Of a stretch of 64,000 nucleotides of DNA, positions 23,272 to 64,000 are shown piece after piece; position 1 is the stretch's first letter, and the number at the start of each line of letters is the position of its first letter. Made by a program: the position numbers and the translations under genes. The notes beneath the pieces were generated by a model. That model was not told the DNA's origin. It did no database searches and saw nothing but the letters and a program-made list of their open reading frames with translations. Source of the stretch: Deminuibacter soli (GTDB taxonomy: Bacteria; Bacteroidota; Bacteroidia; Chitinophagales; Chitinophagaceae); assembly GCF_003412455.1 (NCBI RefSeq), contig NZ_QTJU01000011.1:1-64000 (forward strand). The letters are read 5' to 3'.

Positions 23272-23306
23272 AAAAAGTATCCCGCGGGCGAACGCCCGCG
23301 GGATAC
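23272..23306 (-). terminator. Terminator after the OmpA/PD40 gene
   Basis: GTATCCCGCGGGCG and CGCCCGCGGGATAC form a near-perfect palindrome of 30 bases. On the minus strand a run of five T follows. A second hairpin, ATTGCCGG/CCGGCAAT, lies between it and the gene (23315-23333). It should end the adhesin-PorP-OmpA transcript. Confidence 0.85.
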
Positions 23307-23338
23307 TTGCAGGTATTGCCGGCGCCCGGCAATTATTT

Positions 23339-44332: not shown

Positions 44333-44384
44333 GGGAACGCCGGGGAATTGCGTTTTTTTGATTCTTAATTGCCCTAAAAACGCA

Positions 44385-44408
44385 ATTGCCGGCGTCTCCA
44401 CCGGCAAT
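44385..44408 (-). terminator. Hairpin after the TPR gene; also a member of the tetraloop hairpin family
   Basis: ATTGCCGGCG and CACCGGCAAT pair over ten positions with one mismatch, around the loop TCTC. On the minus strand a short T run (GCGTTTTTAGG) follows, so it can end transcription of the TPR gene. The loop and stem make it a member of the hairpin family found at about 52.5, 54.5, 56.9 and 63.9 kb. Confidence 0.6.
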
Positions 44409-44448
44409 GTTATTGGTATAAGTTCATCAGCCTGCTATGAGCAGACCT

Positions 44449-45870
44449 TTACATTTTCTTACCCTTTTTATACCGGGCAATCAAATCTACCACCTGGTTG
44501 TTCTGTAAAGCCACCGGTTGCAGTTCCAGGAACTTTTTGAGCAGTTTGGGGGATGTTTCCAGTCCTTTTTCCAGCTGTAACAGGGCTTCTTTCGATTTGC
44601 CCATGCCAAACAGCGCGGCGCTGTAATAATAACTGAACACGGGTTTGCCTTCGGTAGCTTCCAGCGCGGCCAGACTTTGTTCTGCTGCTTCCTCATAAAA
44701 TTCGCCCTTGTACAGGCAACGGATTAATGATTCCCAGCCATTTACAAATTTTGGTTTGCTGCGCACCACCAGCCCGAAACACTGGATGGCTTCTTTTATT
44801 TTGCCCTGTTCCATTTTGCATTCGCCCATGGCCAGGTTGTATTCAGGCACATTGCGCTGCAGGCGCATGGCATTTTCCAGCTGTTTTACGGCATTTTCCC
44901 AGTGTTTCTCGTTAATGTAAGTCTGGGCAATTTTATAGTGCAGTTTACTGTCGTCCGGGTTCATGTGCGAAGCCTTGCGGTAGTGAAACCTGGCCTGTGC
45001 GTTGTTGCCCATGCGGTGGTAACAATGGCCGATGGCCTCGTAAATCACCTCTTCGGGGCGGGTAAGCTCCAGTACCTTTTCCAGCGCTTCAATGGCCTCC
45101 TTGTATTTGCGCAGGCGAATATAGGCATCGCCCATGTTGCGGTAGGCGTAGTCGAATTTCTCGTCAATCGCAATGGCGTACTGGTAAGCATCAATGGCTT
45201 TTTCGTACAGTTTGAGGCCCTGGAAGGCGGCAGCCAGGTTAAACCAGGCCAGCTCGTTGTACGGCAGGTCTTCGATTATTTTATGGTGCAGGCGGATGCT
45301 TTCTTCGTTGCGACCGGTAAAATCGGTCCAGAAACAGATTTTATACAGGGCCTCCTCATTGGAAGGTTCTTCTTCCAGTATCAGTTTCAGGCAGTCGAAC
45401 ACCTTGTCAAACTCTTCGTAATCGTCGTACACATCGGCCAGCTCAAACAGCAGGTCAATGCGTTCTTCCCCGTCAAACTGCAGCAGGGCTTCCTGTAACA
45501 GCTGAACGGCCTTCTCCTGCTGGTCGAGCGCCAGGTAGGCATCGGTTTTTAAAATAAAGAGGTTGATATCGGTGCTGTCGAACAGTTCGGCGTGCTCCAG
45601 CACATCCAGGGCATCCTGGTATTTGCGTGTGGCAATTAATAAATCGGCTTTTTTAATGAGTAACTGGGAGGAGTAAGGGAAGTAATGCAAGCCGGTTTCG
45701 GCTGCTTCCAGTGCGCTGGTTAAATCGTCACGGTCGTCAAAATAGTCGATGATACGCTCAAAGGCATCTTCTTCAAGAAAAGCGTGTCCCCGGCCCGATC
45801 GCAAATTCTCGTATTGTTTCAGCAACTCCTTCAATTCTTCTCTGTCTTCACGGAAGGGATTCTCTCTCAT
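44449..45870 (-). CDS. TPR-repeat protein
   Basis: The 473-residue product consists almost entirely of tetratricopeptide repeats. Many have the canonical pattern, such as AWFNLAAAFQGLKLYEKAID and DYAYRNMGDAYIRLRKYKEA followed by IEALEKVLEL. No signal peptide, membrane segment or enzyme domain is visible, so it is probably a cytosolic scaffold. The partner is unknown. Confidence 0.88.
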   Translation of the reverse strand: MRENPFREDREELKELLKQYENLRSGRGHAFLEEDAFERIIDYFDDRDDLTSALEAAETGLHYFPYSSQLLIKKADLLIATRKYQDALDVLEHAELFDSTDINLFILKTDAYLALDQQEKAVQLLQEALLQFDGEERIDLLFELADVYDDYEEFDKVFDCLKLILEEEPSNEEALYKICFWTDFTGRNEESIRLHHKIIEDLPYNELAWFNLAAAFQGLKLYEKAIDAYQYAIAIDEKFDYAYRNMGDAYIRLRKYKEAIEALEKVLELTRPEEVIYEAIGHCYHRMGNNAQARFHYRKASHMNPDDSKLHYKIAQTYINEKHWENAVKQLENAMRLQRNVPEYNLAMGECKMEQGKIKEAIQCFGLVVRSKPKFVNGWESLIRCLYKGEFYEEAAEQSLAALEATEGKPVFSYYYSAALFGMGKSKEALLQLEKGLETSPKLLKKFLELQPVALQNNQVVDLIARYKKGKKM

Positions 45871-45995
45871 AGTTCCTTAGGTTTATGTAAAGTAAATCAA
45901 ATCGCGCATATTTCCAATTCTGCCGTAACTTTTTCGTATTTTATCCGTTTTAACAAAATCAATAAAAAGTTGTTAAATATTTTAGAGAAAATCAC

Positions 45996-46003
45996 TAAAT
46001 TTG
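45996..46003 (+). promoter_or_regulatory. -7 box very close to the start of the small exported protein gene
   Basis: TAAATTTG matches TAnnTTTG. A TTG lies 23 bases upstream, a little further than usual. The box ends only about ten bases before the ATG, so the mRNA would have almost no leader. Confidence 0.5.
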
Positions 46004-46013
46004 CAGGTAGAAT

Positions 46014-46394
46014 ATGAAGCAAAAGCAACCATACCGGATTTTAATAACTGCTGTAATCGCGCTCCTGTGCGTTACAAAAGTTGCTGTTGCCTCATTTTCA
46101 GGCTCTTCTGATGATAGCAAAAATAAGGTGAGCCTAAAAAACCTGAACAAATATTCTAAAGTTTACAACATTCCTTCTCTCCGGACTGTAAGCGGCTTTC
46201 CTTTTAAAAGCATCCAGGATTTCGACAACCAGGGTGACAAACCAGAAACCATTACCCTCGCGCCTTCCTCACAGGAAGTTACCTCCTTCATGCGCGTTGA
46301 ACGCGGCAACACAACTTACGTATTTCCTTACAAATACAAAGTGAAAGTGCCACTGGCCAAATTTAAAACGCCTTCTACTCCGGCTTTTCGTTAG
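46014..46394 (+). CDS. Small exported protein of unknown function
   Basis: The 126-residue product has a signal peptide or N-terminal anchor (KQPYRILITAVIALLCVTKV, then AVASFSG). A basic and serine-rich mature part follows with no recognised domain. It ends with KFKTPSTPAFR. It is probably periplasmic or at the cell surface. A promoter box lies close upstream. No homologue can be named. Confidence 0.65.
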   Translation: MKQKQPYRILITAVIALLCVTKVAVASFSGSSDDSKNKVSLKNLNKYSKVYNIPSLRTVSGFPFKSIQDFDNQGDKPETITLAPSSQEVTSFMRVERGNTTYVFPYKYKVKVPLAKFKTPSTPAFR

Positions 46395-46441
46395 TACAAA
46401 CTTTCGTGGAAAATCTTTTCTGTTTGAAGTTTAAGGTTTAA

Positions 46442-46783
46442 CGTTTAACGTTGGGCTGTTTACCCTGCTTGTCCCCTCGCTCATAAGCTGTATTGTTTCA
46501 TTGTTCAAGAGTTCAAAAGTTCAATTTGGCGACGTTTGAACGTTTAACGTTGGGCTGTTTACCCTGCTTGTCCCTCCCTCACAAAGCTGTATTGTTTCAT
46601 TGTTCAAGAGTTCAAAAGTTCAATTTGGCGGCGTTTGAACGTTTAACGTTGGGCTGTATACCCTGCTTGTCCCCCTCGCTCACAAGCTGTATTGTTTCAT
46701 TGTTCAAGAGTTCAAAAGTTCAATTTGGCGACGTTTGAACGTTTAAAGATTAACGTTGGGCTGTTTTACCTCCCTTGTTCGTT
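46442..46783. repeat. Tandem array of a 99-base unit, about 3.4 copies
   Basis: Units start at 46442, 46541, 46640 and 46740 with CGTTTAACGTTGGGCTGTTT-type sequence (the last is partial). They carry CCCTGCTTGTCCC, a GCTGTATTGTTTCATTG segment, and GTTCAAGAGTTCAAAAGTTC. Copies differ by few bases. It is not a CRISPR array: the units are contiguous and no unique spacers separate short repeats. An open frame across it comes only from the repetition. Confidence 0.85.
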
Positions 46784-46802
46784 ATGCCATTCCGGGAACA
46801 CA

Positions 46803-46828
46803 AAAAAGCCTCCCCGAAAAGGAAGGCC
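46803..46828 (-). terminator. Terminator downstream of the GLPGLI-like gene
   Basis: On the minus strand GCCTTCC pairs with GGGAGGC (one wobble). Six T follow. It lies about 110 bases past the stop codon. Confidence 0.6.
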
Positions 46829-46938
46829 ACATAAATATCCTGCAGTACTTGAACCTTTTAAACTATGAAACAATTGAACTACAGTTCACCTGAAACATTA
46901 AACCTTCAAACGTGAAACGTTAAACGTTGAACGTTAAA

Positions 46939-47565
46939 CTACAAAATCCTATACCCCGACTTCGGCACTTCGAACTTCACTGCCGGTACCGGGTCAAGGT
47001 TCATGGATACGGCCACAAAACGGATCTTTTGTTTGTCTTTATCGCCCTGGGTTTCGTACTCCAGCACAAAGCCGGGGATGCCTTTAAACTGGTAATCGTT
47101 CTCGGCGATGGACGGCACAATGGCCGGCGCATAAAAAATATTCAGCACCGTACCGCTTTTTAAAGTGGCCACGGCTTTTTTACATTCATACCCCAGTATG
47201 GTTTTGGTTTCGCTGGTGAGCGAAACAGACATGCCATCGTATTTCTGGTTGAACTTTTTCCATTTATCCGCATCCAGGGTTGACATGTATTTCTGCCCGC
47301 CTATTTCGCGCAGTATTACCGCCGATCCCCTGAGTGCATTGTACAGGGTGGTTTGCGTAAACTCGGGGCTTTGCATATCAATGCGTACATCGCGGCCACG
47401 CAGGTAAACGGTTTTGGTGGTGCGGGTGTCTGTAGCACCATCGTCACCTACCGACACCTGAAAATGCACGGTACAATCGGCAACGGTTTTAGGGGCTTGC
47501 GCATACCCTGTCACCAGGCTTGCGCAAAACATTATTATGATGAATAGTCGATTGATTATAACCAT
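46939..47565 (-). CDS. GLPGLI-like / DUF4412-like exported protein
   Basis: The 208-residue product has a signal peptide (cut near VTGYAQA) and then a beta-rich body. Near residues 160-175 it has FKGIPGFVLEYE, which resembles the GLPGLI motif of a Bacteroidota protein family. The fit is partial, so DUF4412-type is the alternative. The function of such proteins is unknown. It probably acts in the periplasm. Confidence 0.65.
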   Translation of the reverse strand: MVIINRLFIIIMFCASLVTGYAQAPKTVADCTVHFQVSVGDDGATDTRTTKTVYLRGRDVRIDMQSPEFTQTTLYNALRGSAVILREIGGQKYMSTLDADKWKKFNQKYDGMSVSLTSETKTILGYECKKAVATLKSGTVLNIFYAPAIVPSIAENDYQFKGIPGFVLEYETQGDKDKQKIRFVAVSMNLDPVPAVKFEVPKSGYRIL

Positions 47566-47699
47566 TTAAAGCAGCATTTCGGGCTAAAAGTAAGGAAAAG
47601 ATGATTGCAAAATCCGGCACACCTGTTTTTCCGTTATTCATCCATTTTTCCAGTGAACGGGGAATGCCTGCAGGTTGCCGGTACAATCCATTGTTTTAT

Positions 47700-48554
47700 T
47701 CAGTGCGCCCAAGCCGGCAAAACCAGCTCGTTGTACAGCATAAAAGATACCTTATGCCGGTAATGCTGGTCGTTCACAGCATGCACCCACCTGATACCAT
47801 TGATGGAATTGGTTAAAAAAACCTCCGAAGCTTCACGCAGCACCTCCGGCTCCAGCCGGGTTTCCTGTGCCGGTATACCGGCCGCATGCATGGCCGCCAG
47901 CAGGTGCCTGCGCATTACCCCGCCCACACACCCCTCTGTAATGGCCGGGGTTTTTACGATCCCCTCGTGTACTACAAAAATATTGGCAATGGTGGCATCT
48001 GCCAGTCTGCCGCCGGTATTCAGCAGCAAGGCATCATTCAGCTGCTGCTGTTTGGCCCACAGGGCAGCCATTACATAACACAGGTAGTTATTGCTTTTTA
48101 CATGCGAAAAATCATCTGCAGCCTTGCGTGCGCGGGTGTACACCCCGGTTACCAGGCCGTTTTCGTTAAAACGCCCCGCTGCAGGCGGCAGCTCCCAGCT
48201 TTGGATTAATATATTCGGGTGCAGGTTCTCCGCATCGTACAAACCGCCGTCTCCCCTGAAAACCGTGATACGTATTCTCGCCGCACGCTGGTGCCTGTTT
48301 TTTTGTACCAGCCGCAGCACCTCTTCCTGTAGGCTTTCGGCCGTTAACAATGGCGGCTTTTGAAACAGCAGGGTATCCAGCGAGGCAAACAGCCGCTCCA
48401 TATGCAGCCGCCCCAACACCAACACCCCATTGAGCATTTTCATGGTTTCAAAAAAACCATCACCATAGCGAAAACTCCGGTTGTCTGCTGAAATACAAGC
48501 CGTTTCAGCCGGCAGTATTTTCCCGTTAAGCATCATGTAATGGCCTGTATCCAT
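47700..48554 (-). CDS. Class IV (PabC-like) PLP aminotransferase
   Basis: The 284-residue product is a fold-type-IV PLP enzyme. It has DNRSFRYGDGFFETMKMLNG at the start, the cofactor-lysine region FSHVKSNNYLCYVM, and a C-terminal EVFLTNSINGIRWVHAVN. The substrate could be aminodeoxychorismate (as in PabC), D-amino acids or branched-chain amino acids; the motifs do not decide. It is the second fold-type-IV enzyme in the window. Its start could also be seven codons in. Confidence 0.8.
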   Translation of the reverse strand: MDTGHYMMLNGKILPAETACISADNRSFRYGDGFFETMKMLNGVLVLGRLHMERLFASLDTLLFQKPPLLTAESLQEEVLRLVQKNRHQRAARIRITVFRGDGGLYDAENLHPNILIQSWELPPAAGRFNENGLVTGVYTRARKAADDFSHVKSNNYLCYVMAALWAKQQQLNDALLLNTGGRLADATIANIFVVHEGIVKTPAITEGCVGGVMRRHLLAAMHAAGIPAQETRLEPEVLREASEVFLTNSINGIRWVHAVNDQHYRHKVSFMLYNELVLPAWAH

Positions 48555-48864
48555 GATCCAAAGCTAAAGAAAAACAGCTGCAAGCGCATAGCTGCAAGCT
48601 TGTGGGGGCATACCGCCTGCGGCGGGCGTGGCGGCACACTTTAACCACGGCGCGAGACAGCTTCAGGTTGCGAGCTTGTTTGCAAAAAATCGCCTCCGGC
48701 AATAGTAAACATACCCGCTTAGATAGTCTCGACGTGTCGACTGTCGATGCTCGAAAATTGGACCCGCTTCAATCACTCACGACTGACGCCTCACGAGTAA
48801 TACCCGCTCCGGTCATCTTGACTGTCGCCTCTCGATTCTCGCTATCGCTGCTTATCTTGCTTCC
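48555..48864. repeat. Mosaic repeat spacer upstream of the Nif3 gene
   Basis: This gene-free spacer contains modules shared with other spacers. An AGCTGCAAGC-word block with GCCTGCGGC (48576-48630) resembles 63912-63957. A CGACAGTCGACACGTCGAGA-type module in reverse orientation (48711-48753) resembles 52453-52487 and 56811-56855. A CACTCACGACTGACGCCTC block (48774-48797) resembles 52375-52391. No gene or clear promoter is visible. Confidence 0.6.
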
Positions 48865-49962
48865 ATGAAAATTGCTGACATCATCAGGGAACTGGAAACG
48901 CTGGCCCCGCCGGCTTACCAGGAATCGTACGACAATGCCGGGCTGCTAACCGGGTCTGCCGGCTGGGAATGCACCGGCGCACTTTGCACACTCGATGTTA
49001 CCGAAGCCGTTGTAAACGAAGCTGTTCGCCGCGGCTGCAACCTTGTGGTGGCGCACCATCCCATTATTTTTAAGGGACTGAAAAAGATCACCGGCAGAAA
49101 TTACGTGGAGCAAACCATTATTGCCGCTATCAAAGCCGATGTGGCCATCTACGCCATTCATACCAATCTCGATAATGTACTGCATGGCGTAAATGCCCGT
49201 ATTGCTGATAAAATAGGGCTTATCAACCGCCGCATCCTGGTGCCGAAGGAAGGCACCCTGTTAAAATTGTACACTTTTGTACCGGTAGCCCATGCCGAAC
49301 AGGTGAAAAATGCACTGTTCAAAGCCGGGGGCGGACAAATTGGCCAGTACAGCGAATGCAGCTTTTCTGCCGAAGGCGATGGTACTTTTAAGGCAGGCGA
49401 AGGCACCCACCCCTTTGTGGGTGAACAGGGCCAGCGCCATACCGAGCGAGAGCTGAAACTGGAACTGGTGTTCCCGGCGGTGTTGCAGCAACCCATTATA
49501 CAGGCCCTGCTCACCGCACACCCCTACGAAGAAGTGGCCTATGATATTGTGGCGCTTAACAATGATTACCAGCAGATTGGCAGCGGCCTTATTGGCGAAC
49601 TGCCTGTCGTAAGCACCGAAACCGGGCTGTTGCAGCAGCTGAAACAGGCATTTGGTCTGCAGGTGATACGCCATACCCCCTTACTGGGCACCCCGGTATT
49701 AAAAGTAGCCCTGTGCGGCGGGGCCGGCAGCTTTTTAACAGGCGCGGCACTGGCAGCAGGTGCGCAGGTATACGTTACAGCTGATGTTAAGTACCATGAA
49801 TTTTTTGATGCCAACAGCCGGTTGGTAATTGCAGATATCGGGCATTGGGAAAGCGAACAATTTACCATAGATTTACTGTTTGACATTTTGCTGGCAAAAT
49901 TCCCTACCTTTGCCGTCCTTAAATCCGAAATTGCCACTAACCCTGTCCACTATTTCGTATAG
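48865..49962 (+). CDS. Nif3-like dinuclear metal centre protein
   Basis: The 365-residue product has the Nif3 (NGG1-interacting factor 3) layout. The N-terminal half carries the metal ligands in VVAHHPIIFKGL (histidines 64 and 65), and the C-terminal half carries GHWESEQFTIDLL. An inserted domain of about 110 residues (residues 130-245, with YTFVPVAHAEQVKNALFKAG and AHPYEEVAYDIVAL) is the PII-like insert of longer bacterial members. The enzymatic role is not settled. It precedes the zinc-ribbon protein gene, a frequent neighbour. Confidence 0.92.
   Translation: MKIADIIRELETLAPPAYQESYDNAGLLTGSAGWECTGALCTLDVTEAVVNEAVRRGCNLVVAHHPIIFKGLKKITGRNYVEQTIIAAIKADVAIYAIHTNLDNVLHGVNARIADKIGLINRRILVPKEGTLLKLYTFVPVAHAEQVKNALFKAGGGQIGQYSECSFSAEGDGTFKAGEGTHPFVGEQGQRHTERELKLELVFPAVLQQPIIQALLTAHPYEEVAYDIVALNNDYQQIGSGLIGELPVVSTETGLLQQLKQAFGLQVIRHTPLLGTPVLKVALCGGAGSFLTGAALAAGAQVYVTADVKYHEFFDANSRLVIADIGHWESEQFTIDLLFDILLAKFPTFAVLKSEIATNPVHYFV
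49905..49912 (+). promoter_or_regulatory. Possible -7 box for the zinc-ribbon gene, inside the Nif3 frame
   Basis: TACCTTTG followed by GCCG lies near the end of the Nif3 gene, about 140 bases upstream of the next start. This is the same box and context as at rpsL and fusA. It may be coincidental because it is coding sequence. Confidence 0.3.
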
Positions 49963-50050
49963 GTGCTCCTGGCAATCAAACAGATAATTCAGGTGGCTGC
50001 ATATGCAAGCGCCATCCTGTAACTTGAAACCTGAAACTTGAAACATATAT

Positions 50051-50806
50051 ATGGCTACCGTTAAAGACTTTTCTGTAGAAGAAAAACTCTCAGCCCTTGT
50101 TAGGTTGCAGAAAATAGACAGCAAACTGGACGAAATCCAGATTTTGAAGGGAGAGCTTCCAATGGAAGTGAGTGACCTGGAAGATGAGATTGCTGGTTTA
50201 AACAGCCGTAGAACGCGTATTGAGGAAGAGATCAATGGTATTACTGAGTTCATTGAACAAAAGAAAAATGCCATTAAAGATGCGGATGCACTGGTTAAGA
50301 AATACGAGAAACAAAGCCAGGCCGTAAAAAACAACCGCGAGTTTGAAGCCATCAACAAAGAAATTGAGATGCAGCAGCTCGAAGGTAAACTGGCCGAAAA
50401 ACATATCCGCGACGCAAACGAAGAACTGGCCGATAAAGCCAAGGCCCTGGAGTATGCTAAAAAACAGATCGCTTCCAAAGAAAGCGTACTGACGCACAAG
50501 AAAGGTGAACTGCAGAAAATTATTGCAGACACGGAGAAAGAAGAAAACCATTTCAACGATCTCGCTGCCGAAGCACGCAAGGCTATGGATGAGCGCCTGC
50601 AATATTCGTACGACCGTATCCGCAAAAGCTACCGTAACGGCCTCGCTGTAGTGCCTGTTGAAAGGGATGCCTGCGGTGGTTGCTTCAATGCAATTCCTCC
50701 TCAGAAACAGAGCGAAATCCGCCAGCGCAAAAAAGTAATGGTTTGCGAAAACTGCGGACGTATCCTCGTTGACGACGAGCTGAACAACGCAATTGAAATC
50801 AAATAA
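50051..50806 (+). CDS. Coiled-coil protein with C-terminal C4 zinc ribbon
   Basis: The 251-residue product is a long coiled coil (about residues 10-175, rich in E, K, L and A heptads). A zinc-ribbon end follows with CGGCFN and CENCGR. This layout is that of the CT398/YbgI-neighbour type of zinc-ribbon proteins, whose role is poorly known. It follows the Nif3 gene with a spacer of about 90 bases that contains the words ACTTGAAACCTGAAACTTGA. A terminator follows. Confidence 0.9.
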   Translation: MATVKDFSVEEKLSALVRLQKIDSKLDEIQILKGELPMEVSDLEDEIAGLNSRRTRIEEEINGITEFIEQKKNAIKDADALVKKYEKQSQAVKNNREFEAINKEIEMQQLEGKLAEKHIRDANEELADKAKALEYAKKQIASKESVLTHKKGELQKIIADTEKEENHFNDLAAEARKAMDERLQYSYDRIRKSYRNGLAVVPVERDACGGCFNAIPPQKQSEIRQRKKVMVCENCGRILVDDELNNAIEIK

Positions 50807-50825
50807 TCATTGATAAAATTCCTTC

Positions 50826-50856
50826 AAAGGGTGCTGTAATACAGTGCCCTTTTTTA
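50826..50856 (+). terminator. Terminator of the Nif3/zinc-ribbon unit
   Basis: AAAGGGTGCTGTA and TACAGTGCCCTTT form a long stem with two wobbles and a tiny loop. A T run follows. It starts about 20 bases past the zinc-ribbon stop. Confidence 0.85.
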
Positions 50857-50866
50857 TTTTCGGCCT

Positions 50867-52366: not shown

Positions 52367-52524
52367 CGCCGTGAATAGTCAGTCGTGAGTAACAAAAGCC
52401 GGTGAATAGTGAATAGGCAATAGTGAATAAACTTAGCGGGTACTATTTCGATCATCGGGACATCGACACATCGAGACTATTTAAGCGAGCCGTTGATGGA
52501 AGCGGATCTTATTGCTGCTGGCCG

Positions 52525-52544
52525 TGCCGGTGTTCTCATCGGCA
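52525..52544. repeat. Tetraloop hairpin repeat
   Basis: TGCCGGTG pairs with CATCGGCA (one G-T wobble) around the loop TTCT. It is a member of the family with a pyrimidine-rich loop and variable stem. Confidence 0.7.
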
Positions 52545-52561
52545 TGATGTGGCTTCACCAG

Positions 52562-52585
52562 GTTGGCTGTGGGGACACAGCCAAC
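52562..52585. repeat. Tetraloop hairpin repeat
   Basis: GTTGGCTGTG pairs with CACAGCCAAC over ten bases. The loop is GGGA, or TCCC on the other strand. It is a reverse-oriented member of the family. Confidence 0.75.
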
Positions 52586-52634
52586 GGCAGCAAACTCGTC
52601 CGCGCTGCGCAAGCAGCCGCGGACATAATACGCC

Positions 52635-52658
52635 GTTGCCGGTGTCCTCACCGGCAAC
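52635..52658. repeat. Tetraloop hairpin repeat
   Basis: GTTGCCGGTG pairs perfectly with CACCGGCAAC around the loop TCCT. It is the best example of the family consensus. Confidence 0.8.
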
Positions 52659-52828
52659 TAACTCCGCTCCGGTAAAAAATCTTCGCCCTGGTCATTCACA
52701 ATTGCCTATTACTATTCACCCATGATCCCTTCACACCGGCTTTCCATTTTCACATTACCACACTTTCAAATTTTCAAATTAGCATCGCGCGAATGCGCGA
52801 TGCTTTATATTTGGCCACTGAAATTGTT

Positions 52829-54484: not shown

Positions 54485-54492
54485 CAACTGCC

Positions 54493-54516
54493 GTTGGCTG
54501 TGTCCTCACAGCCAAC
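54493..54516. repeat. Tetraloop hairpin repeat
   Basis: GTTGGCTGTG pairs perfectly with CACAGCCAAC around the loop TCCT. Its stem equals that at 52562-52585, but its loop is in the other orientation. Confidence 0.78.
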
Positions 54517-54527
54517 ATTGAACACAT

Positions 54528-54551
54528 CATGCCGGTGGGAACACCGGCATG
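54528..54551. repeat. Tetraloop hairpin repeat
   Basis: CATGCCGGTG pairs perfectly with CACCGGCATG over ten bases. The loop is GGAA, or TTCC on the other strand. Confidence 0.75.
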
Positions 54552-54601
54552 GGCGGGAAAAACTAACAGTTTTGTAACTTTGCTTCTTAAACAGACAGGA
54601 A

Positions 54602-56173: not shown

Positions 56174-56801
56174 TATAGCCGCTTTCAAAAAAGGCATTCA
56201 GTTAACAGCCATGCTGGCCATGTTTACCCTGAGTGCCTCGGCCATACTTGGCAAGAATGAATGTTTTCTATGGCTGAATACCAACCTCGGTATAGTGGCA
56301 GATTATTTCTTTGCTGCATGGACTTACATGGGTGACGGACTGGTATGGATTGCCGTATTACTGGTGCTGCTGTTTGTGCTTAAGAAAAAGCAGTTCTTAC
56401 CCATGGCCATTGCCGCATTTTTATTAAGCACTGCATTTACGCAGATAGGCAAACACTGGATACGCCCCGGCGAAGCGCGCCCCATCAGGGCTATTCATGA
56501 AACCAACCTGATACATACGGTTCCGTTTGTAGAGGTACATACCATTTCCAGTTTCCCCAGCGGACATACCGGAACTGCATTCACCATTTACCTGTTCCTG
56601 TGTTTGCTGATACCCGGCACCTGGTGGGTAGCAGTGGGCTTCTTATACGCCATACTGGTAGCCTACTCGCGCATCTACCTGGCACAACATTTCCCGCTCG
56701 ATGCAGGTGCAGGTATGGTGATAGGTATCCTGTCGGCCTCCCTGGCCATGATCATACAGCAACGTTTTACAAAGAAATCGACAGTAGTGAGTGGTGAGTG
56801 A
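56160..56801 (+). CDS. PAP2 superfamily membrane phosphatase
   Basis: The 213-residue product has several hydrophobic helices and the PAP2 motifs in order: KHWIRPGEARP, SFPSGHTGTAF with the catalytic histidine, and SRIYLAQHFPLDAGAG. It may dephosphorylate undecaprenyl pyrophosphate or a lipid A phosphate group. The start is inside the end of the ArnT-like gene, so translation is coupled. The last residues VVSGE and the stop are encoded by a GTGAGTGGTGA word identical in protein sequence to the AroE end. Confidence 0.9.
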   Translation: MQHLNIAAFKKGIQLTAMLAMFTLSASAILGKNECFLWLNTNLGIVADYFFAAWTYMGDGLVWIAVLLVLLFVLKKKQFLPMAIAAFLLSTAFTQIGKHWIRPGEARPIRAIHETNLIHTVPFVEVHTISSFPSGHTGTAFTIYLFLCLLIPGTWWVAVGFLYAILVAYSRIYLAQHFPLDAGAGMVIGILSASLAMIIQQRFTKKSTVVSGE

Positions 56802-57095
56802 GAAAGCCGCCATCGAGAATCGACAGTCGACAGTCGAGACCATCTTAGCGGATACCAACCTATAAAGCAGTTGCGGGTGTCCTCACCGCAACGATATTCG
56901 CTACAGTAAAATCTCCGCTCCGTTCATTCACTATTGCCGATTCACTATTCACCAGTGATCCCACTCACCAATTCACCGCTCTTCTGCCCGCATTCACCGC
57001 TAAAAGCCCCTGCCTTTCACGCTTTCACATTACAGCAACATTTTGTAATGCTGCTGGCATCTGTTTTGAATCTATACAGGCATAAATCTGTTTGT
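56782..57095. repeat. Mosaic repeat spacer after the PAP2 gene
   Basis: The GTGAGTGGTGAG word that ends the PAP2 gene opens this element. A CGACAGTCGACAGTCGAGAC module (56811-56855), one tetraloop hairpin, a CTCCGCTCCG block, and a right arm ATTCACTATTGCCGATTCAC (56926-56953) follow. The right arm is almost identical to that of the 52.4-52.7 kb element. No gene was found before the next start. Confidence 0.7.
56870..56892. repeat. Tetraloop hairpin repeat
   Basis: GTTGCGGGTG pairs with CACCGCAAC with a single bulged G, around the loop TCCT. Confidence 0.7.
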
Positions 57096-57623
57096 ATGAA
57101 AAAGATGATACTGATAGCCGGATTAATGATGAGCGGAATGGTGTATTATAATACTGCTGCTGCACAGGTTAGCGTAAACGTAAATGTAAATATAGGCAAC
57201 CAGCCTGTTTGGGGACCTACGGGTTATGATCATGTAGACTATTACTACATGCCCGATATCGATGCATATTATTATGTACCTGAAAGACGTTTTATTTATT
57301 ACGAAAACAACCGCTGGGTAAGGGCTTCAGCCCTGCCTCCTGCTTATCGCAACTACGATTTGTACAGGGGTTATAAAGTGGTGATCAATGAACGTGAACC
57401 TTACCTGCACGATAACAGGTACAAAGCACAATACGCACGATACAGGAACTGGAACGGAAGACAGCCCGTTATCCGCGATAGCCGCGATCAAAGGTATTAT
57501 GTGGTAAAAGGTCACCCGATGTATAACCGTACGGTTGTACGCAACGACCGCAACGATCACAACAACCATTGGGATCGTGATGATCATGATCATGATCATG
57601 ACCACGGCCATGGCCGCCACTAA
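57096..57623 (+). CDS. Exported protein with a histidine- and aspartate-rich tail
   Basis: The 175-residue product has a signal peptide (MKKMILIAGLMMSGMVYYN, cut near TAAAQ). A tyrosine-rich body follows with YYYMPDIDAYYYVPERRFIY and ENNRWVRASALPPAYRNYDL. It ends in HWDRDDHDHDHDHGHGRH, which may bind metal ions such as zinc, nickel or copper. Proteins of this body type are common in Bacteroidota and unknown in function. Upstream in-frame codons are not signal-like. A shared terminator follows. Confidence 0.78.
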   Translation: MKKMILIAGLMMSGMVYYNTAAAQVSVNVNVNIGNQPVWGPTGYDHVDYYYMPDIDAYYYVPERRFIYYENNRWVRASALPPAYRNYDLYRGYKVVINEREPYLHDNRYKAQYARYRNWNGRQPVIRDSRDQRYYVVKGHPMYNRTVVRNDRNDHNNHWDRDDHDHDHDHGHGRH

Positions 57624-57625
57624 AT

Positions 57626-57661
57626 AAAAAAGCCCCCCGCTTAAAAACGGAGGGCTTTTTT
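57626..57661. terminator. Two-way terminator between convergent genes
   Basis: AAAAAAGCCCCCCG pairs with CGGAGGGCTTTTTT with one mismatch around an eight-base loop. T runs are present on both strands. It lies between the stops of the two convergent genes and should serve both. Confidence 0.88.
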
Positions 57662-57673
57662 ATGAGTTGTTGG

Positions 57674-58315
57674 TTACTTCAGAAATCCATAATCCACTAC
57701 CCTGCGCAGGTAGGTTTTATTGGAAATAACCCAGGTAATTTCATAACTGCCGCCTTCTTCTTTCTTCAGCAGGTAAATGTATATCTTCTTGCCATCGCCT
57801 GAAAAATACACACCACCGTACGGCTTCAGCTTACCATTGCCGGCATCGTTGTAGGTAAACACCGGGTTGCAGAAATCGGTATAGGCTGCAGCGGGTATGG
57901 CGATAGTATCACCGGCAATAGTCAGCGTAACTGCACTCACCGTTGTTTTGGGCACACTGCCGTAGTTGCCGAAATAGCCCTTGTTGTCTATTTTAATGAG
58001 GTGTTCTTCAGAATAGGCAAGTTTGTGTTTGTCTGCCAGGAATGGACCCGAACGCAGCGTAACTGTAACATCGTTGCCGGAGAAAGTGATAAAATCCTTA
58101 CCGTAGTCAGTAACCGGGATAGATTGCAGGGGCTCTTTACCTGCGCCCTCATCAATACCGGTCATGGTAAAAGTGGCCAGGTCGGCACGGATATCTTTCT
58201 CCTGCATTTTAGAGAACATATCCTTCTTGCTTCTGAAATCAGGGAAATCGAGTTCCTGCGCATGCACGCATAACTGCAAACCGATACACAATACTAAAAA
58301 CAGTGTACGCATCAT
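57674..58315 (-). CDS. Exported protein of unknown function
   Basis: The 213-residue product has a signal peptide (MRTLFLVLCIGLQLCVHAQE). The body is beta-rich with no recognised domain; YGGVYFSGDGKKIYIYLLKK and SYEITWVISNKTYLRRVVDY are near the end. The start may be the second ATG. It is convergent with the histidine-rich protein gene and divergent from the sugar dehydrogenase gene. Confidence 0.65.
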   Translation of the reverse strand: MMRTLFLVLCIGLQLCVHAQELDFPDFRSKKDMFSKMQEKDIRADLATFTMTGIDEGAGKEPLQSIPVTDYGKDFITFSGNDVTVTLRSGPFLADKHKLAYSEEHLIKIDNKGYFGNYGSVPKTTVSAVTLTIAGDTIAIPAAAYTDFCNPVFTYNDAGNGKLKPYGGVYFSGDGKKIYIYLLKKEEGGSYEITWVISNKTYLRRVVDYGFLK

Positions 58316-58376
58316 ATAATAACGGGTTTAAAATTCAGGCATTGTTTTGGCAAAGCAATACCATATTTCCAAAGAT

Positions 58377-59948
58377 ATGGAATATCTGCACCGGCTTTTA
58401 CTGCCCTTTTTACTGAGTTTTGTGTTCAGCACTGCCCTGCGTGCCCAGGCAATTACAGGTCCGCAGGGTGAGCTGTTCAACATACGCCTCATTGCCGACA
58501 AGCTCAGCGATCCCTGGGAGGTTACGTACGGCCCCGACCAGTACCTGTGGGTTACCGAGGCCAAGGGATACCGTGTATTGCGTATTAACCCCATTACCGG
58601 CGTTAAAACTGTGCTGCTCGATCTCAATAACCAGCGCGATTTTCCCCGCTACGATGTAATACCCGATTCAGCAGACGGCGGTAAACCCTGGCCGCAGGGC
58701 GGACTAATGGGTATGGCCCTTCACCCGCGGTTACTGAAAGGCCAGCCTTATGTGTTTCTCGCCTACCTGTACCACTTTGCAGGTGTTAACGAACAGGGAC
58801 ATGGCTGCGCAGAAAACTTCGGCGGCTGTTATTTTACCACCCGTATTGTTCGGTACACCTACAATAGCACCCGGCAAAAACTGGAATCACCAGTGGTGCT
58901 GTGCGACAGCATACCCGGCAGCAGCGATCACAACGCAGGTCGCCTGCTGATAGCTCCCGTAAGCAACGAATACTATCTTTTTTACAGTGTAGGCGATATG
59001 GGTGCAGGGCAGTTTGACAACGCAGGCCGCCCCAACCATGCGCAGAACATCGATTCGTATGAAGGGAAGATATTGCGGTTTAATGTATATCCTGATGCTG
59101 ACAGTAACCGCTACAACAGCTGGATACCGAACGACAATCCTTTCTGCACAGCCGACCACCAGAGTGCGGTATGGAGTTACGGACACCGCAATGCACAAGG
59201 ACTGGCGTACGCTTTCATTGGCGGCAACTACCGCCTGTATGCAGCAGAACACGGCCCTTTTTCAGATGATGAGATTAATATGGTTGATGCAGGAAAGAAT
59301 TATGGCCACCCGCTGGTAATTGGTTACAACGATGGCAACTACGACCACCTTGCGGCAGGTGTTACCGCAGAAGCAAGTTTGCCCGGCCCCTGGCATACCA
59401 GCTACCCGCTTATCAACAGCGAAGCAGCCAATGCCAAAGCCATGGGCGACAGCTACCGCGATCCCATTAAAACACTATACCCGAATACCAATGCGTTTTT
59501 AAACAACGTGATGACACGCATCCGCAACAACGACCCCGAAAAACCCACCTGGCCGTCTGAAGCGCCCAGCAGTGTATCGGTATACACCTCCACTGCCATT
59601 CCCGGCTGGAAAAACTCGCTGCTGGTTACCACACTGAAAGGGGGAAAACTCATTCGCCTGCAGCTGGATGCTACAGGCGAACACGTGATCAGTGATACGA
59701 TCAACTATTTTAAAGGACGTTTGCGTTACCGCGACCTCGCCATTTCAGACGATGGCTATAAAATATACCTCGCGCTCGACAGCACCATTGTATCCAGCGG
59801 CCCCACTACCGTACAACCTATGGAGACTGCCAAACGCGGCTCTGTGATTGAGCTTACTTACATCGGCAACACACGCAGCAGCAACAAGACACCGGCAGAC
59901 AGTATCCCCATTCAACGCCTGGATGTGCTGCCCAGGCGCAAACCCTGA
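58377..59948 (+). CDS. PQQ-dependent sugar (glucose/sorbosone) dehydrogenase-like protein
   Basis: The 523-residue product begins with a signal peptide (MEYLHRLLLPFLLSFVFSTA, then LRAQ). A six-bladed propeller of the glucose/sorbosone dehydrogenase family follows: LSDPWEVTYGPDQYLWVTEA, GLMGMALHPRLLKGQPYVFL, then YGHRNAQGLAYAF and AAEHGPFSDDEINMVDAGKN, which is the family signature for the active-site region. Periplasmic sugar oxidation with PQQ is likely, but the sugar is unknown. No PQQ synthesis genes are in the window. Confidence 0.9.
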   Translation: MEYLHRLLLPFLLSFVFSTALRAQAITGPQGELFNIRLIADKLSDPWEVTYGPDQYLWVTEAKGYRVLRINPITGVKTVLLDLNNQRDFPRYDVIPDSADGGKPWPQGGLMGMALHPRLLKGQPYVFLAYLYHFAGVNEQGHGCAENFGGCYFTTRIVRYTYNSTRQKLESPVVLCDSIPGSSDHNAGRLLIAPVSNEYYLFYSVGDMGAGQFDNAGRPNHAQNIDSYEGKILRFNVYPDADSNRYNSWIPNDNPFCTADHQSAVWSYGHRNAQGLAYAFIGGNYRLYAAEHGPFSDDEINMVDAGKNYGHPLVIGYNDGNYDHLAAGVTAEASLPGPWHTSYPLINSEAANAKAMGDSYRDPIKTLYPNTNAFLNNVMTRIRNNDPEKPTWPSEAPSSVSVYTSTAIPGWKNSLLVTTLKGGKLIRLQLDATGEHVISDTINYFKGRLRYRDLAISDDGYKIYLALDSTIVSSGPTTVQPMETAKRGSVIELTYIGNTRSSNKTPADSIPIQRLDVLPRRKP

Positions 59949-59949
59949 T

Positions 59950-62514
59950 TTACGGGTTTACAATTACCGCAGCCCTGCCACTTCTGCCACGCGTATCAAA
60001 TGCTTTAAATGTAATGGTTCCCTTGGTAGTTACAGGCCCTGTATACAGTGCGCTTTTGGTATCAGGTGTTTTGCCATTGGTGGTATAGCGGATCACCAAA
60101 CCGGGCAACTGTATATTAGCTGTTACTGCACCATTTATTACAGCGGCACCTGGCACAGGTATACGGTATTGATAGCCGCCACCATAATAATCCAGCCTGG
60201 GCAGTTCAAACTTGCCTATGCGGTTTACAAACTGGTTCCAGGCTTGCCGGTATAGCTGTGGCATAGCAGCTTTATCAGCGGTTGCCCATTCAGGGTCTTT
60301 GGCCCATGCGCGCTCTGCAATACCCAGCAGTTTGGGCAGCAGCATGTATTCCAGGCGCTTTTCGTCTACCAGGGTTTCTGCCCACAGCAATCCCTTTACG
60401 CCAACAATATTGCTCTTGCCATAATCGGTTAAACGCTGTTTGCCGACAAACAGCGACTGGTCTACCGCATTCCCGTTTTTGTCAACAACAGCGTTTTTGA
60501 AGTAATCGAACGGGATAAAACCATACGGTTTGTCTATATCGATAAAGGCGCCCCAGTAATAACCCGGCTCATCAAAGTCTTTGTAATACGCCATATCCAG
60601 GTAGTTATTGGTAACGCAGCTCAGCACTACCTTATAACCTGCATTGGCCAGTTTGTAGGCCAGGTCTTCATCGCCATCGCCCAGCACATTGTTCCATACA
60701 TCTACCTGGAAAGGTGTGGCGATAAAATCAGGATTGGGTACACGGAATGGCTTGCCGTCGAGTTTGGTCTTGCGCAGTGCCGTTTCTTCCCAGCCGGACA
60801 AGAACAACCTGCGCTGTTGTAAAATGTTATTGAGTTTGCCATAGAAATAGTACCATACATCCTCTGTGGTTTTCACATTGCTGTTACTGTTCTTCAATGC
60901 AGCAAAAGCAGGAGATTTTTCCCAAACACCTGCGGGCACTTCATCGCCACCCATGTGTATGGTGGTTAACGGCGCACCTGCTGCCGCATACATATTGCGC
61001 AGCTCATCAACCACCTTCTCCATAAAATGATACACAGAAGGCATGGCAGGATCAATTACATTATCATTCCAGTTTTGAACAGAACTGTATTTTGATGCAT
61101 CCTGCACATCATGCAGCAGGTATTCCTTAGCAGCTGCCGTATCGCCTGCAGCCATAAAATGCTGGTACCGTGCAAACATGGCGCGTGAGGCGGCACGGGC
61201 ATGGCCCGGCGCTTCTATTTCAGGTATCACCTGTATATGACGCTGGTTGGCATATTGCAGCAGTTCAATAAAATCTGCTTTGGTATAATAACCGGAGCCT
61301 TGTGTATTATTCACATCCGGACCAGAGCCGTATGCCGGCTGCAGGTGATCGGTATTGGTAGCAGTGTAACCGCGCTGGCTGCCGATGGCCGTTAACTCAG
61401 GCAACCCGGCAATTTCAATACGCCAGCCTTCATCATCGGTAATGTGAAAATGAAAGGTATTGAGTTTATACAGCGCCATCAGGTCGAGCACTTTCTTCAC
61501 TGTTGACTTTGGTTTAAAGTTGCGGCCCACATCCAGCATAAAGGCACGGTAGCCGAAACGCGGCGCATCGTATACTTTAACACCAGGCAGCTGTATCGCT
61601 TTGCTGGTACCTGCCCATACATTTACCGGTACCAGTTGCAGCAGGGATTGTATGCCGTAAAATATACCCGTAGCACTGCCGGCTTTAATGGTTACACCAT
61701 TACCCGTTACCTCCAGGGAATAAGCACCTTCCGGTTCGGTTCCCTGTTCCAAATGAATCACAGCCTTATCAGCAGCGTCTTTCAGTAATTCGGCATGTAC
61801 CGGTTTTGCATTGGGTGCAATGGCATTCAGCTGTGTGCGCAGGTAAGCCGCTTCGTTTTCAAAGCCTGCCGTGTACGCAATGTTTACAGATGCAGGCAGT
61901 GCGAATGCTTCGCCTGTTTCTGCATACGCCACCGGTGTGGGCAGTATTTTGGTGAGTTGCTGTGCAGGTACATCAGTAATGTTTTTGTTCTGCTCAAATA
62001 AATCCTGCGCAGTTACCAGTCCAATTTTATCTCCTTTAAAACGTAAGTATTGTTTGGGCTGTGTAGATGGGATAATGTTCACCGCAGGCAGGCTGGTACC
62101 TGTTGAAGCGCCGTCCCACACCAGGAACAGGCCATTGGGTGCATCGGTAAAATTCACCACCCATGCTTCAGAAGTAAAGCCGATGCGCACACTATCGCCC
62201 GGTGCGAGCGGTGCAAAACCGGCAGCCGGTGCAATGGAATACAGGTCGCCGTTTTCGTGCTGCACAGTGACATTGCCATCTATCGCTTTCAGCACAGAGC
62301 GGCCAAAGTTGAAATAGATCTTCCAGCCAGTGGCAGGCAGGGGTGTTTTGTTCTTGTTTACAAAAGTGAAAGCAGTAGCGCTTTGCGCCTCACCCTGGTA
62401 GCCGTTTTCCAGCACCTGCCAGCTAACAGCCAGCTGCCGGGGATTAAAATTGTTCTTCTGGGCAATACCAGTTAAGGAAACCGCAATAAAAGCAAGCAGC
62501 AAAAGGTTCTTCAT
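59950..62514 (-). CDS. Beta-N-acetylhexosaminidase (glycoside hydrolase family 20)
   Basis: The 854-residue product has a signal peptide (cut near GIAQK). It then has a CHB_HEX-like carbohydrate-binding domain (about 25-165), a GH20b-type domain (about 180-310), the catalytic TIM barrel (about 320-690) with the acidic pair D524-E525 in HMGGDEVPAGVW, and a C-terminal Ig-like CHB_HEX_C domain (about 780-854). It removes terminal GlcNAc or GalNAc from chitin oligomers or glycans in the periplasm or outside. The next gene on the same strand is an HGSNAT-like membrane protein, so the two may act in one amino-sugar pathway. Confidence 0.94.
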   Translation of the reverse strand: MKNLLLLAFIAVSLTGIAQKNNFNPRQLAVSWQVLENGYQGEAQSATAFTFVNKNKTPLPATGWKIYFNFGRSVLKAIDGNVTVQHENGDLYSIAPAAGFAPLAPGDSVRIGFTSEAWVVNFTDAPNGLFLVWDGASTGTSLPAVNIIPSTQPKQYLRFKGDKIGLVTAQDLFEQNKNITDVPAQQLTKILPTPVAYAETGEAFALPASVNIAYTAGFENEAAYLRTQLNAIAPNAKPVHAELLKDAADKAVIHLEQGTEPEGAYSLEVTGNGVTIKAGSATGIFYGIQSLLQLVPVNVWAGTSKAIQLPGVKVYDAPRFGYRAFMLDVGRNFKPKSTVKKVLDLMALYKLNTFHFHITDDEGWRIEIAGLPELTAIGSQRGYTATNTDHLQPAYGSGPDVNNTQGSGYYTKADFIELLQYANQRHIQVIPEIEAPGHARAASRAMFARYQHFMAAGDTAAAKEYLLHDVQDASKYSSVQNWNDNVIDPAMPSVYHFMEKVVDELRNMYAAAGAPLTTIHMGGDEVPAGVWEKSPAFAALKNSNSNVKTTEDVWYYFYGKLNNILQQRRLFLSGWEETALRKTKLDGKPFRVPNPDFIATPFQVDVWNNVLGDGDEDLAYKLANAGYKVVLSCVTNNYLDMAYYKDFDEPGYYWGAFIDIDKPYGFIPFDYFKNAVVDKNGNAVDQSLFVGKQRLTDYGKSNIVGVKGLLWAETLVDEKRLEYMLLPKLLGIAERAWAKDPEWATADKAAMPQLYRQAWNQFVNRIGKFELPRLDYYGGGYQYRIPVPGAAVINGAVTANIQLPGLVIRYTTNGKTPDTKSALYTGPVTTKGTITFKAFDTRGRSGRAAVIVNP

Positions 62515-62605
62515 TCAATCGTTTTTTATCAGAGTAGTAAGTAAAAAGGGTACGCGGGCAGCCACTGCAATCATTGCTGCAACAGCTGCCTCACTGCAAC
62601 CGCAG

Positions 62606-63739
62606 TTATACGCGTACATAAATTTTTTTCATATCCAGTATTTTTCCCACGCACCAGCACAATAGCATATACAATACGGCAAACAGCAATGAGCCAACCG
62701 GGCCAGGTATTGCAGCCTGGAAAATATACTTGTTGAGCCAGCCGTATAAATGCAGTTTGGGCTCCATGTGAATGGTAAACAGTACAATGGCCAGCAGTTC
62801 GCTGAGCAGGTAAATAAACAGCGGGTTTTTACCGAACACGGTAAAGAAACCCGTGCCACGTCGCACGTTTAAAAACTCTATGAGGTATATCAGCGCAGCA
62901 ATCAGCACCAGGTCAATACCCACGGTGTTCAGCACAAATGAACTGGTCCATAATTTTTTATTGATGGGAAACACCATGTTCCATACCAGGGCCGTAAAAA
63001 TAAGCAGGCAGCCGCAGAGCAGCAGTTTGGTAAGTCCCTCGTAGGTTTTGCCCTTCTGTTGAATAAACAAACCGGTAAAATAACCCAGCACCACGTTTAC
63101 AATAGCAGGGAGTGTACTCAGCAACCCCTCGGGATCAAACGGGATACCCTCCCCATGATACAAATGTGCATCACCCAGTATCCATTCATCCAGCCGCATG
63201 CCTGCATTGCCCGTCATGCTCAGCGGGTCGGCGCCTGTCACCGGGAACAGCAGCAATACCACCCAATAACCCAGCAACAGCACGGCCGATACAATCATCA
63301 CCGTTTTGCGTTTGCAATACAATATCAGCAGTGAAGCAAACAGGTAAGCCAGGGCTATGCGTTGCAGCACACCCATAATACGCGTGTTGCCAATGGGGTT
63401 GCCTGCCCAGCTGCCATCAGGCAACTGGTGTACAAACGGGAACCAGTACATCAGGTAACCCAGCAGGAAGATCAGTACACTGCGTTTGAGTATTTTCTTC
63501 AGCGCAGTTGCACGTCCTGCCCCAGTGTATTTTTTCATGGCAAAGCTCATGGCATTGCCCACGGCAAAGAGAAAGGAAGGGAAAACGAGATCGGTAGGAG
63601 TAAAACCATGCCAGGCCGCATGTTTTAAGGGGGCAAAAGTATACAGTTCGCTGCCCGGTGTGTTTACGATAATCATAAAGCAAACAGTCATGCCGCGAAA
63701 TACATCCAGTGCCAGAAACCGGTTGTTTGGTTGTGCCAT
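62606..63739 (-). CDS. HGSNAT-like / DUF5009 membrane acyltransferase-family protein
   Basis: The 377-residue product has about ten or eleven hydrophobic helices. It begins with RFLALDVFRGMTVCFMIIVN and HAAWHGFTPTDLVFPSFLFA, the two signatures of the DUF5009/heparan-alpha-glucosaminide N-acetyltransferase group (NagX-like in bacteria). The bacterial role is usually transport or modification of amino sugars and is not proven. It lies about 90 bases upstream of the GH20 gene on the same strand. Confidence 0.87.
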   Translation of the reverse strand: MAQPNNRFLALDVFRGMTVCFMIIVNTPGSELYTFAPLKHAAWHGFTPTDLVFPSFLFAVGNAMSFAMKKYTGAGRATALKKILKRSVLIFLLGYLMYWFPFVHQLPDGSWAGNPIGNTRIMGVLQRIALAYLFASLLILYCKRKTVMIVSAVLLLGYWVVLLLFPVTGADPLSMTGNAGMRLDEWILGDAHLYHGEGIPFDPEGLLSTLPAIVNVVLGYFTGLFIQQKGKTYEGLTKLLLCGCLLIFTALVWNMVFPINKKLWTSSFVLNTVGIDLVLIAALIYLIEFLNVRRGTGFFTVFGKNPLFIYLLSELLAIVLFTIHMEPKLHLYGWLNKYIFQAAIPGPVGSLLFAVLYMLLCWCVGKILDMKKIYVRV

Positions 63740-64000
63740 TGCAGTAGTTTGTTTAGTCAGTTCTATCCGGCCGCGCCGAACTGCCTCTATTCAGTGCAAG
63801 CAATGCCCGCGGCGTAACGATGATTTAAGGTAAATCTTTTTCAGGATGGATAGATGGTTTTATGGCTTTATGGTTGAAAGCCTGCCGCAGGCTGTGTCCG
63901 CACAGCCAATAAGCTGCAAGCTACTAGCTGTTAGCTTGTTGGGCCTAAGCCTGCGGCAATATCTTCTTCCCTGATCTGCTCGCTACGATCGGGGCTCGCT
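63740..64000. repeat. Repeat-rich spacer at the right end
   Basis: It contains ATGGATAGATGGTTTTATGG words (like those at 4355-4432), a short tetraloop hairpin, and an AGCTGCAAGCTACTAGCTGT block with GCCTGCGGC (63912-63957) like that at 48576-48630. No gene starts here. Confidence 0.6.
63890..63907. repeat. Short tetraloop hairpin repeat
   Basis: GGCTGTG pairs with CACAGCC over seven bases around the loop TCCG. It is the shortest member of the family and overlaps a GCCTGCCGCAGGC palindrome. Confidence 0.6.

Follow-up and report, generated by a model that had tools for sequence, protein, structure and literature searches.

The DNA analysed here is a 64,000-nt stretch of Deminuibacter soli (contig NZ_QTJU01000011.1, positions 1 to 64,000; hereafter the window), in which a preliminary description had pointed out eight small hairpins with four-base loops, named after positions 44385, 52525, 52562, 52635, 54493, 54528, 56870 and 63890. 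We studied them as candidate repetitive extragenic palindrome (REP) elements. The unit is ∼28 nt long. Its GCC tag is unpaired and lies 5′ of a stem of ∼10 bp, which ends in three apical GTG/CAC pairs and carries a TCCY loop; the mid-stem reads GCCG or GGCT, and the versions of the stem foot include GTT/AAC and CAT/ATG. A covariance model, R1, was built from 39 distinct 28-nt copies of the D. soli genome, including 52562, 52635, 54493, 54528 and 63890 and excluding 44385, 52525 and 56870. All eight hairpins are present, and they are the eight best R1 matches in the window (22.6–46.8 bits); the ninth-best match scores 17.5 bits and is one of the eight read on its opposite strand.

Hairpin 44385 (44381–44408, plus strand, 22.6 bits, outside the model) is a worn copy with the tag GCA and a C-A mismatch at its apex. 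In the first of two inverted pairs, 52519(+)/52562(−), a GCCG-type copy with one G-T pair (52525, at 52519–52546, 23.0 bits, outside the model) forms the left half, and a GGCT-type copy with its GCC tag on the minus strand (52562–52589, 44.2 bits) the right half. In the second, 54489(+)/54528(−), a GGCT-type copy (54493, at 54489–54516, 44.8 bits) stands to the left of a GCCG-type copy with the foot CAT/ATG (54528–54555, 40.5 bits). Between the pairs lies the best match (52635, at 52631–52658, plus strand, 46.8 bits), a GCCG-type copy with the tag GCC, a 10-bp stem and the loop TCCT, and beyond them are a worn copy whose 3′ arm is one base short (56870, at 56866–56892, plus strand, 26.1 bits, outside the model) and a GGCT-type copy with a 7-bp stem and the loop TCCG (63890, at 63883–63910, plus strand, 33.7 bits). 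Our count of GTG/CAC closures agrees with the six of eight first reported. The perfect pairing that had been ascribed to the stems holds for five hairpins (four with 10 bp, and 63890 with 7 bp) and fails for 44385, 52525 and 56870, which carry the defects given above. As had been stated, all eight lie in spacers between the long open reading frames (ORFs) of the window; three of the eight overlap a 100-amino-acid ORF (52423–52725), probably a spurious one. Four-base-loop hairpins of at least 7 bp number 21 in the window against 4.55 expected, and those closed by GTG number five, whereas 60 dinucleotide shuffles gave 0.07 on average and never more than one.

The excess extends to the whole 5.83-Mb genome, where the preliminary description had proposed to look for it. 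The 18-mer core GCCGGTGTCCTCACCGGC, with up to three mismatches, occurs at 130 sites, compared with four for the reversed pattern; exact matches to the loose format CC-N7-GTGTCYYCAC number 175 versus 5 reversed; and R1 recognises at least 149 copies (149 of 150 candidates scored, from 4600). The exact 28-mer found no match in the contigs of other genomes, in a collection from which the genome's own or very near records have perhaps been left out. Individual copies were studied in 73 stretches of the D. soli genome (738,637 bases), which gave 165 R1 matches at E ≤ 0.01 and, after removal of four opposite-strand duplicates, 161 copies in 95 clusters. Since these stretches were mostly fetched for containing copies, the sample gives no reading of density. 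When one copy per cluster is aligned, information reaches 2.0 bits inside the 28-nt block, whereas no position outside it exceeds 0.20 bits; the flanks are therefore unrelated and the ends of the unit sharp. With two weak window matches added (163 copies), the tag is GCC in 144 and the apex GTG/CAC in 148, and the two main subtypes, GCCG and GGCT, account for 85 and 65 copies, respectively. A candidate third subtype, GCCCGCGAGGTGTCCTCACCGACGCG, whose stem is interrupted by an internal loop, was noticed at 11504 and 11589 of one stretch (L085), where its units alternate with GCCG-type copies, and at 1465 of another (L029). Repeats of the GTGAATAGTGAATA kind were also seen, in inverted copies around the hairpins at 52400–52760 and 56780–56980 of the window and in other D. 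soli stretches; for 42 of 65 such sites in the sampled stretches a REP lies no more than 200 nt away, and the zone so defined makes up 4.7% of this REP-enriched sample.

REPs in this genome occur as single units, as inverted pairs with outward tags and as arrays, and nearly all are intergenic. With genes called by a simple codon-bias ORF caller, 149 of the 161 copies fall outside genes, though 81% of the bases are coding. Ten of the remaining twelve form one array within an ORF that extends upstream of a likely signal-peptide start, so these copies are probably extragenic too. Single copies make up 69 of the 95 clusters, and the biggest cluster holds 12 units. Among 41 neighbours no more than 70 bp apart, 29 are arranged plus-minus, 11 minus-plus and one minus-minus, and the plus-minus pairs have start offsets of 37–55 bp with their tags facing outward. 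This is the layout of bacterial interspersed mosaic elements (BIMEs) and of REPINs, in which two inverted REPs act as a unit, yet most clusters here are single copies.

A gene for a REP-associated tyrosine transposase (RAYT), which the preliminary description had suggested seeking, was found in the same genome. The Pfam family PF01797 has a sole match there, a single-copy IS200-type TnpA gene at G000:C17:415449-415784, and this result was first taken to mean that a RAYT is absent. It was overturned by a profile of nine RAYTs from relatives (A1), which has one match in the genome, at C11:59295-59768 (E = 9.4e-32), outside the window and inside a dense cluster of copies. Hairpins flank this gene on one side at C11 positions 58898, 58991, 59032(−), 59105, 59146(−) and 59217, and on the other at 59869(−), 59939, 59980(−) and 60050, with a worn copy near 59823. 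The 171-amino-acid protein carries NHLH, WQ, YIHENP and a C-terminal SS, and is matched by the NCBIfam model REP_Tyr_transpos (NF047646; E = 9.8e-21). Subclass 2.6 of TnpA_REP, which equals RAYT group 5 of Bertels, is characterised in the relevant passages of PMC6006769 by NH[LIV]H, WQ, YIH[QN]NP and a C-terminal SS; NHLH, WQ and SS agree, while YIHENP has E at the published Q/N, so that by its motifs the protein appears to fit this subclass largely. An AlphaFold2 model of its neighbour in the RAYT tree, from locus L115 (pLDDT 95.6), has as its best match in the PDB entry 4er8, the structure of a RAYT in complex with a REP hairpin (E = 5.5e-9, TM 0.61, rmsd 6.4). The TnpA_REP fold with HuH motif and catalytic tyrosine is thus predicted by the model for this neighbour, and from its sequence for the D. 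soli protein. We consider the gene at C11:59295-59768 the likely partner of the REPs.

Further, longer palindromes, CGAAGGGGC...GCCCCTTCG, were observed between the REP units beside the RAYT gene (L072, 18898–20000; L073, 1–80). As for the IS200-type TnpA gene, its 3.3-kb locus (L031) contains no GTG-N4-CAC site and no REP hairpin; the gene lies between ORFs that, as read from their sequence, resemble DAHP synthase/chorismate mutase and aroB, and its product is perhaps a domesticated Y1 enzyme.

The association of hairpin and transposase recurs in relatives. We examined the best 80 of 195 loci matching the D. soli RAYT (40–50% identical), whose titles read as Bacteroidota throughout. Within 500 nt of the RAYT genes (79.2 kb) there are 225 occurrences of the motif GTG-pyrimidines(3-4)-CAC, compared with 12 in 218.6 kb at a distance of 1.5–3 kb and four in the 86.9 kb of the 28 loci, taken whole, that match PF01797 best (IS200-like). 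It is found near the gene in 58 of the 80 loci, on both sides in 48, and 148 of the 225 motifs have their pyrimidine strand on plus upstream or on minus downstream of the RAYT. Across these 58 loci, C stands at position −12 in 50 and at −11 in 41, and G at −13 in 21. Under a wider rule that admits TT-type loops and requires seven paired bases, a hairpin lies within 600 nt in 71 of the 80 loci (two or more in 62), versus 12 of 80 for distal flanks of about twice the length, and a CC tag stands before 164 of the 225 hairpins near the gene and before 8 of the 15 distant ones. Hairpins of this format also stand beside the RAYT of G046, which belongs to the order of D. soli but to a different family. 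In a count across relatives, among which the genus of the window had no second genome, a clear excess was otherwise seen in G045 alone (16 sites). This genome, from another family, has arrays of GCCGGTGTTCTCACCGGC; of eight stretches studied, the three with RAYT matches (L090–L092) lack GTG-closed hairpins of at least 6 bp, and the five with hairpins (L093–L097), where arrays of GCCGGTGTTCTCACCGGC and TTTTGGTG-TTAT-CACCAAAA hairpins were seen, hold no ORF with RAYT motifs.

The preliminary description had also drawn attention to compensatory changes in the stems. These are strongest between species: the mid-stem bases vary between RAYT loci yet stay paired, so that, with one motif taken per locus, complementarity holds in 3.60 of the four pairs that follow, whereas permuting the 3′ arms between loci gives 1.75 (maximum 2.19 of 2000). 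Within the D. soli genome, three of five measures exceed all 500 shuffles, namely paired stem cells (92.1% versus 78.9%), stem cells altered on both sides (45 versus 17.9) and the covariation score (0.287 versus 0.096), whereas pairs with a two-sided change (4 versus 4.0) and further pair types (10 versus 10.3) show no excess. When only the bare apex motif is required and the outer stem ignored, the 77 distinct sites divide cleanly: the next four pairs are complete in 60, three are paired in 4 and two or fewer in 13. Because the changes within the genome come mainly from the two mid-stem subtypes and several foot versions, they reflect few events.

The type of hairpin follows the RAYT. On a quick tree of the 80 RAYTs (17 of 77 inner branches starred), 71 rows could be labelled with a hairpin type. 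The loop class (TCYY, TTRT or triloop) needs nine changes, whereas 300 shuffles gave 25.2 (minimum 21); for the mid-stem the numbers are 29 and 48.7 (minimum 44). A Mantel test gave r = 0.36, a value reached in none of 5000 permutations. Two genomes that contain two RAYTs each, Mucilaginibacter sp. LF-bin-485 (L177 and L180) and Algoriphagus oliviformis (L147 and L163), have a distinct hairpin at each gene, matching its clade. Formats were then counted genome-wide, that of the TC type in 38 genomes from 39 of the 80 loci. In the 33 genomes with a TC-type RAYT hairpin, the TC format occurs 843 times against 39 for the control, and 27 of them reach three times the control plus one; in the five TT- or triloop-type genomes it occurs 4 times against 11. 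The TT format occurs 166 times against 32 in 13 TT-type genomes and 30 times against 28 in nine TC-type genomes including D. soli, rising above control in G071 (9 versus 2) and G081 (12 versus 6). The genome-wide format is thus present where the RAYT type predicts it and absent elsewhere, with exceptions.

Presence and absence of REPs could be compared in the source genomes of loci L160 and L161, which are about 90% identical. Of three REP-bearing sites of the first genome looked up in the second, two are without REPs there. At one, the flanks are 8 nt apart when empty and 165 nt apart in the other genome. At the second, the empty version has a 20-nt overlap of the flanks, and the filled version is 91 nt longer and bounded by a 25-nt direct repeat. 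At this second site, L235 (G079:C7:12713), the REP segment stands between two copies of a 25-nt sequence ending in GGGCGTGTCCCTCG, and G106 has one copy and no segment.

REPs and the domesticated transposases that accompany them are widespread in bacterial genomes, and to our knowledge the question of how REPs spread is unsolved. The D. soli repeat is a short, intergenic, high-copy palindrome with an unpaired, strand-specific 5′ tag, and copies flank a RAYT gene, an arrangement known as a REPtron. The genome-wide excess, the hairpin-flanked RAYT and the covariation bear out the earlier suggestion of a selected structure or mobile hairpin unit. We conclude that the hairpins are very probably REP elements of a Bacteroidota REPtron, and that the single RAYT at C11:59295-59768 is likely to have spread them.

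How this might occur can be proposed by analogy. According to the relevant passages of PMC8266576 and PMC6006769, the substrates that RAYTs bind and cut in GTAG systems are single-stranded REP hairpins with a tag, and the tag, the stem and the loop contribute to different extents; from this we infer cleavage, a guide role for GCC and mobilisation by the RAYT in D. soli as well. The unit would fold in single-stranded DNA, such as that on the lagging strand, and the RAYT would read the apex, loop and stem together with the GCC guide, cut next to the hairpin and transfer the strand. REPs and REPINs would multiply in this way while the RAYT remains single-copy. The (G)CC would serve as guide and the GTG-loop-CAC apex as a constant handle, each RAYT lineage having its own version of the mid-stem; changes in the two arms would go together because the RAYT needs a folded hairpin.

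Several observations weigh against this conclusion or limit it. The D. soli RAYT scores under the family cut-offs (74.2 versus 80 for NCBIfam, 20.6 versus 23 for Pfam Y1_Tnp), and the six sampled stretches fetched on other grounds (120 kb) contain zero copies. No such hairpin was found at 9 of the 80 RAYT loci under the rule used, 6 of the 33 genomes with a TC-type RAYT lack a clear genome-wide excess, and 139 of the 166 TT sites sit in four genomes (G093, G094, G099 and G101), several others being at background. Plain co-inheritance may explain part of the correlation along the tree. The third site of the genome comparison (L237) is uninformative, since the other genome has an unrelated stretch of ∼655 nt in its place, and the two polymorphic sites are compatible with gain or loss alike.

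An alternative is that the hairpins are host RNA elements, kept as mRNA terminators or 3′-end stabilisers with no transposase involved. Their stems are strong, and divergent spacers are avoided, as 3′ ends predict: 83 clusters with called neighbours lie in 43 tandem, 34 convergent and 6 divergent spacers, whereas all spacers of at least 30 nt comprise 181 tandem, 57 convergent and 51 divergent ones (chi-square, p = 1.4e-4). Insertions that are merely tolerated would equally avoid promoters, however. The T run that follows the hairpin of an intrinsic terminator is rare: of 128 copies in the sampled stretches, 12 have TTTT no more than 14 nt from one end or the other. This accords with the initial judgement that these are not ordinary terminators, and an Rfam search of the window gave no match. 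Nor would such a role account for the strand-specific unpaired GCC tag, the outward-facing pairs or the tight linkage of hairpins to RAYT genes. We therefore regard this explanation as improbable, while a secondary RNA role may exist. Less probable still is that the hairpins are miniature elements moved by an unrelated transposase, as are miniature inverted-repeat transposable elements by DDE-type enzymes, with a secondary link to the RAYT. In its favour, copies and arrays are also frequent at a distance from the RAYT gene, and the ∼25-nt direct repeat bordering one polymorphic site is not known to be typical of Y1 enzymes. Against this, hairpins occur at 71 of 80 related RAYT loci, the hairpin type tracks the RAYT, and the unit is a tagged hairpin with no longer terminal repeats around it. 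Chance palindromes, to which the three imperfect hairpins of the window might point, are refuted by the five GTG-closed hairpins where no shuffle had more than one and by the genome-wide counts.

Two features of the window stand apart from the REP family: perfect 15-bp stems with four-base loops at 6405–6438 and 23275–23308, which are unrelated to it, and a single ORF of 3295 codons at 26483–36370 on the minus strand.

A broader proposition, which we put forward tentatively and rate as somewhat closer to doubtful than to probable, is that RAYTs of this type in Bacteroidota have a common hairpin code unlike the GTAG rule: all of them would read a constant CC guide and a GTG-pyrimidine-loop-CAC apex (or its TTRT variant), and the mid-stem base pairs and loop class would serve as the address of the lineage. 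If so, several RAYT/REP systems could operate side by side in a single genome without cross-talk, examples being Mucilaginibacter sp. LF-bin-485 and A. oliviformis, and there would be a second recognition logic for REP mobilisation on single-stranded DNA. Apart from this proposition, the results give a Bacteroidota branch that PMC6006769 describes only as atypical a format that is easy to search for, made up of tag, apex and loop together with a stem linked to the type of transposase; RAYT-REP recognition becomes testable through swaps of a few base pairs, and a close genome pair that differs at single REP sites is now named.

The D. soli repeats resemble the GTAG REPs, BIMEs and REPINs of Escherichia coli, Pseudomonas and Stenotrophomonas (RAYT groups 2 and 3), as portrayed in the pertinent parts of PMC8266576 and PMC3733652, in being intergenic, high-copy palindromes with an unpaired 5′ tag, and in having inverted pairs, arrays, one flanked RAYT and several REP subtypes per genome. 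They differ from these systems, to which the bench work described in that part of PMC8266576 belongs, in that the tag is GCC, not GTAG or GTGG, and in their fixed GTG/CAC apex and pyrimidine loop; by its tag, the repeat falls outside the GTAG superfamily. The CGTC REPs, too, are short palindromes with a tag, and they have been reported from several phyla, Bacteroidetes included. In the account of them in PMC3733652, as far as it bears on these features, they have a CGTC, TGTC or CCTC tag, a stem of 8–9 bp that nearly always starts with A-T, a CCA tail and no reported linked transposase gene, whereas the D. soli units have a GCC tag, the foot GTT/AAC or CAT/ATG, and a RAYT, which places them outside the CGTC superfamily. 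The ends of IS200/IS605 insertion sequences are also hairpins in single-stranded DNA, with a guide 5′ of the foot, read by a Y1 HuH enzyme (relevant sections of PMC6006769 and PMC8266576). Unlike a multicopy insertion-sequence gene, the RAYT has one match in the genome, and many hairpins are distant from it.

Among the closest known relatives are the REPs of subclass 2.6, which, in the passages of PMC6006769 (Quentin et al. 2018) that deal with them, lack GT[AG]G, are atypical and weaker in structure, and were found by hand. The D. soli repeats share with them the occurrence in Bacteroidota, a RAYT with NH[LIV]H, WQ, YIHxNP and a C-terminal SS, structures both at the gene and elsewhere in the genome, and the lack of GT[AG]G. 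Some of these sequences may already stand in Table S1 of that paper. Compared with the published description in those passages, hairpins of the D. soli type are strong and uniform, with a (G)CC tag, ∼10 bp, a GTG/CAC apex, a pyrimidine-rich loop and a type that follows the RAYT clade. In the literature found on Bacteroidota REPs, of which PMC6006769 and PMC3733652 are the pertinent papers, the relevant passages describe neither a strong format common to these hairpins nor a (G)CC tag nor co-variation of hairpin and RAYT clade, and literature searches brought up no further paper on these features, so they appear to be new.

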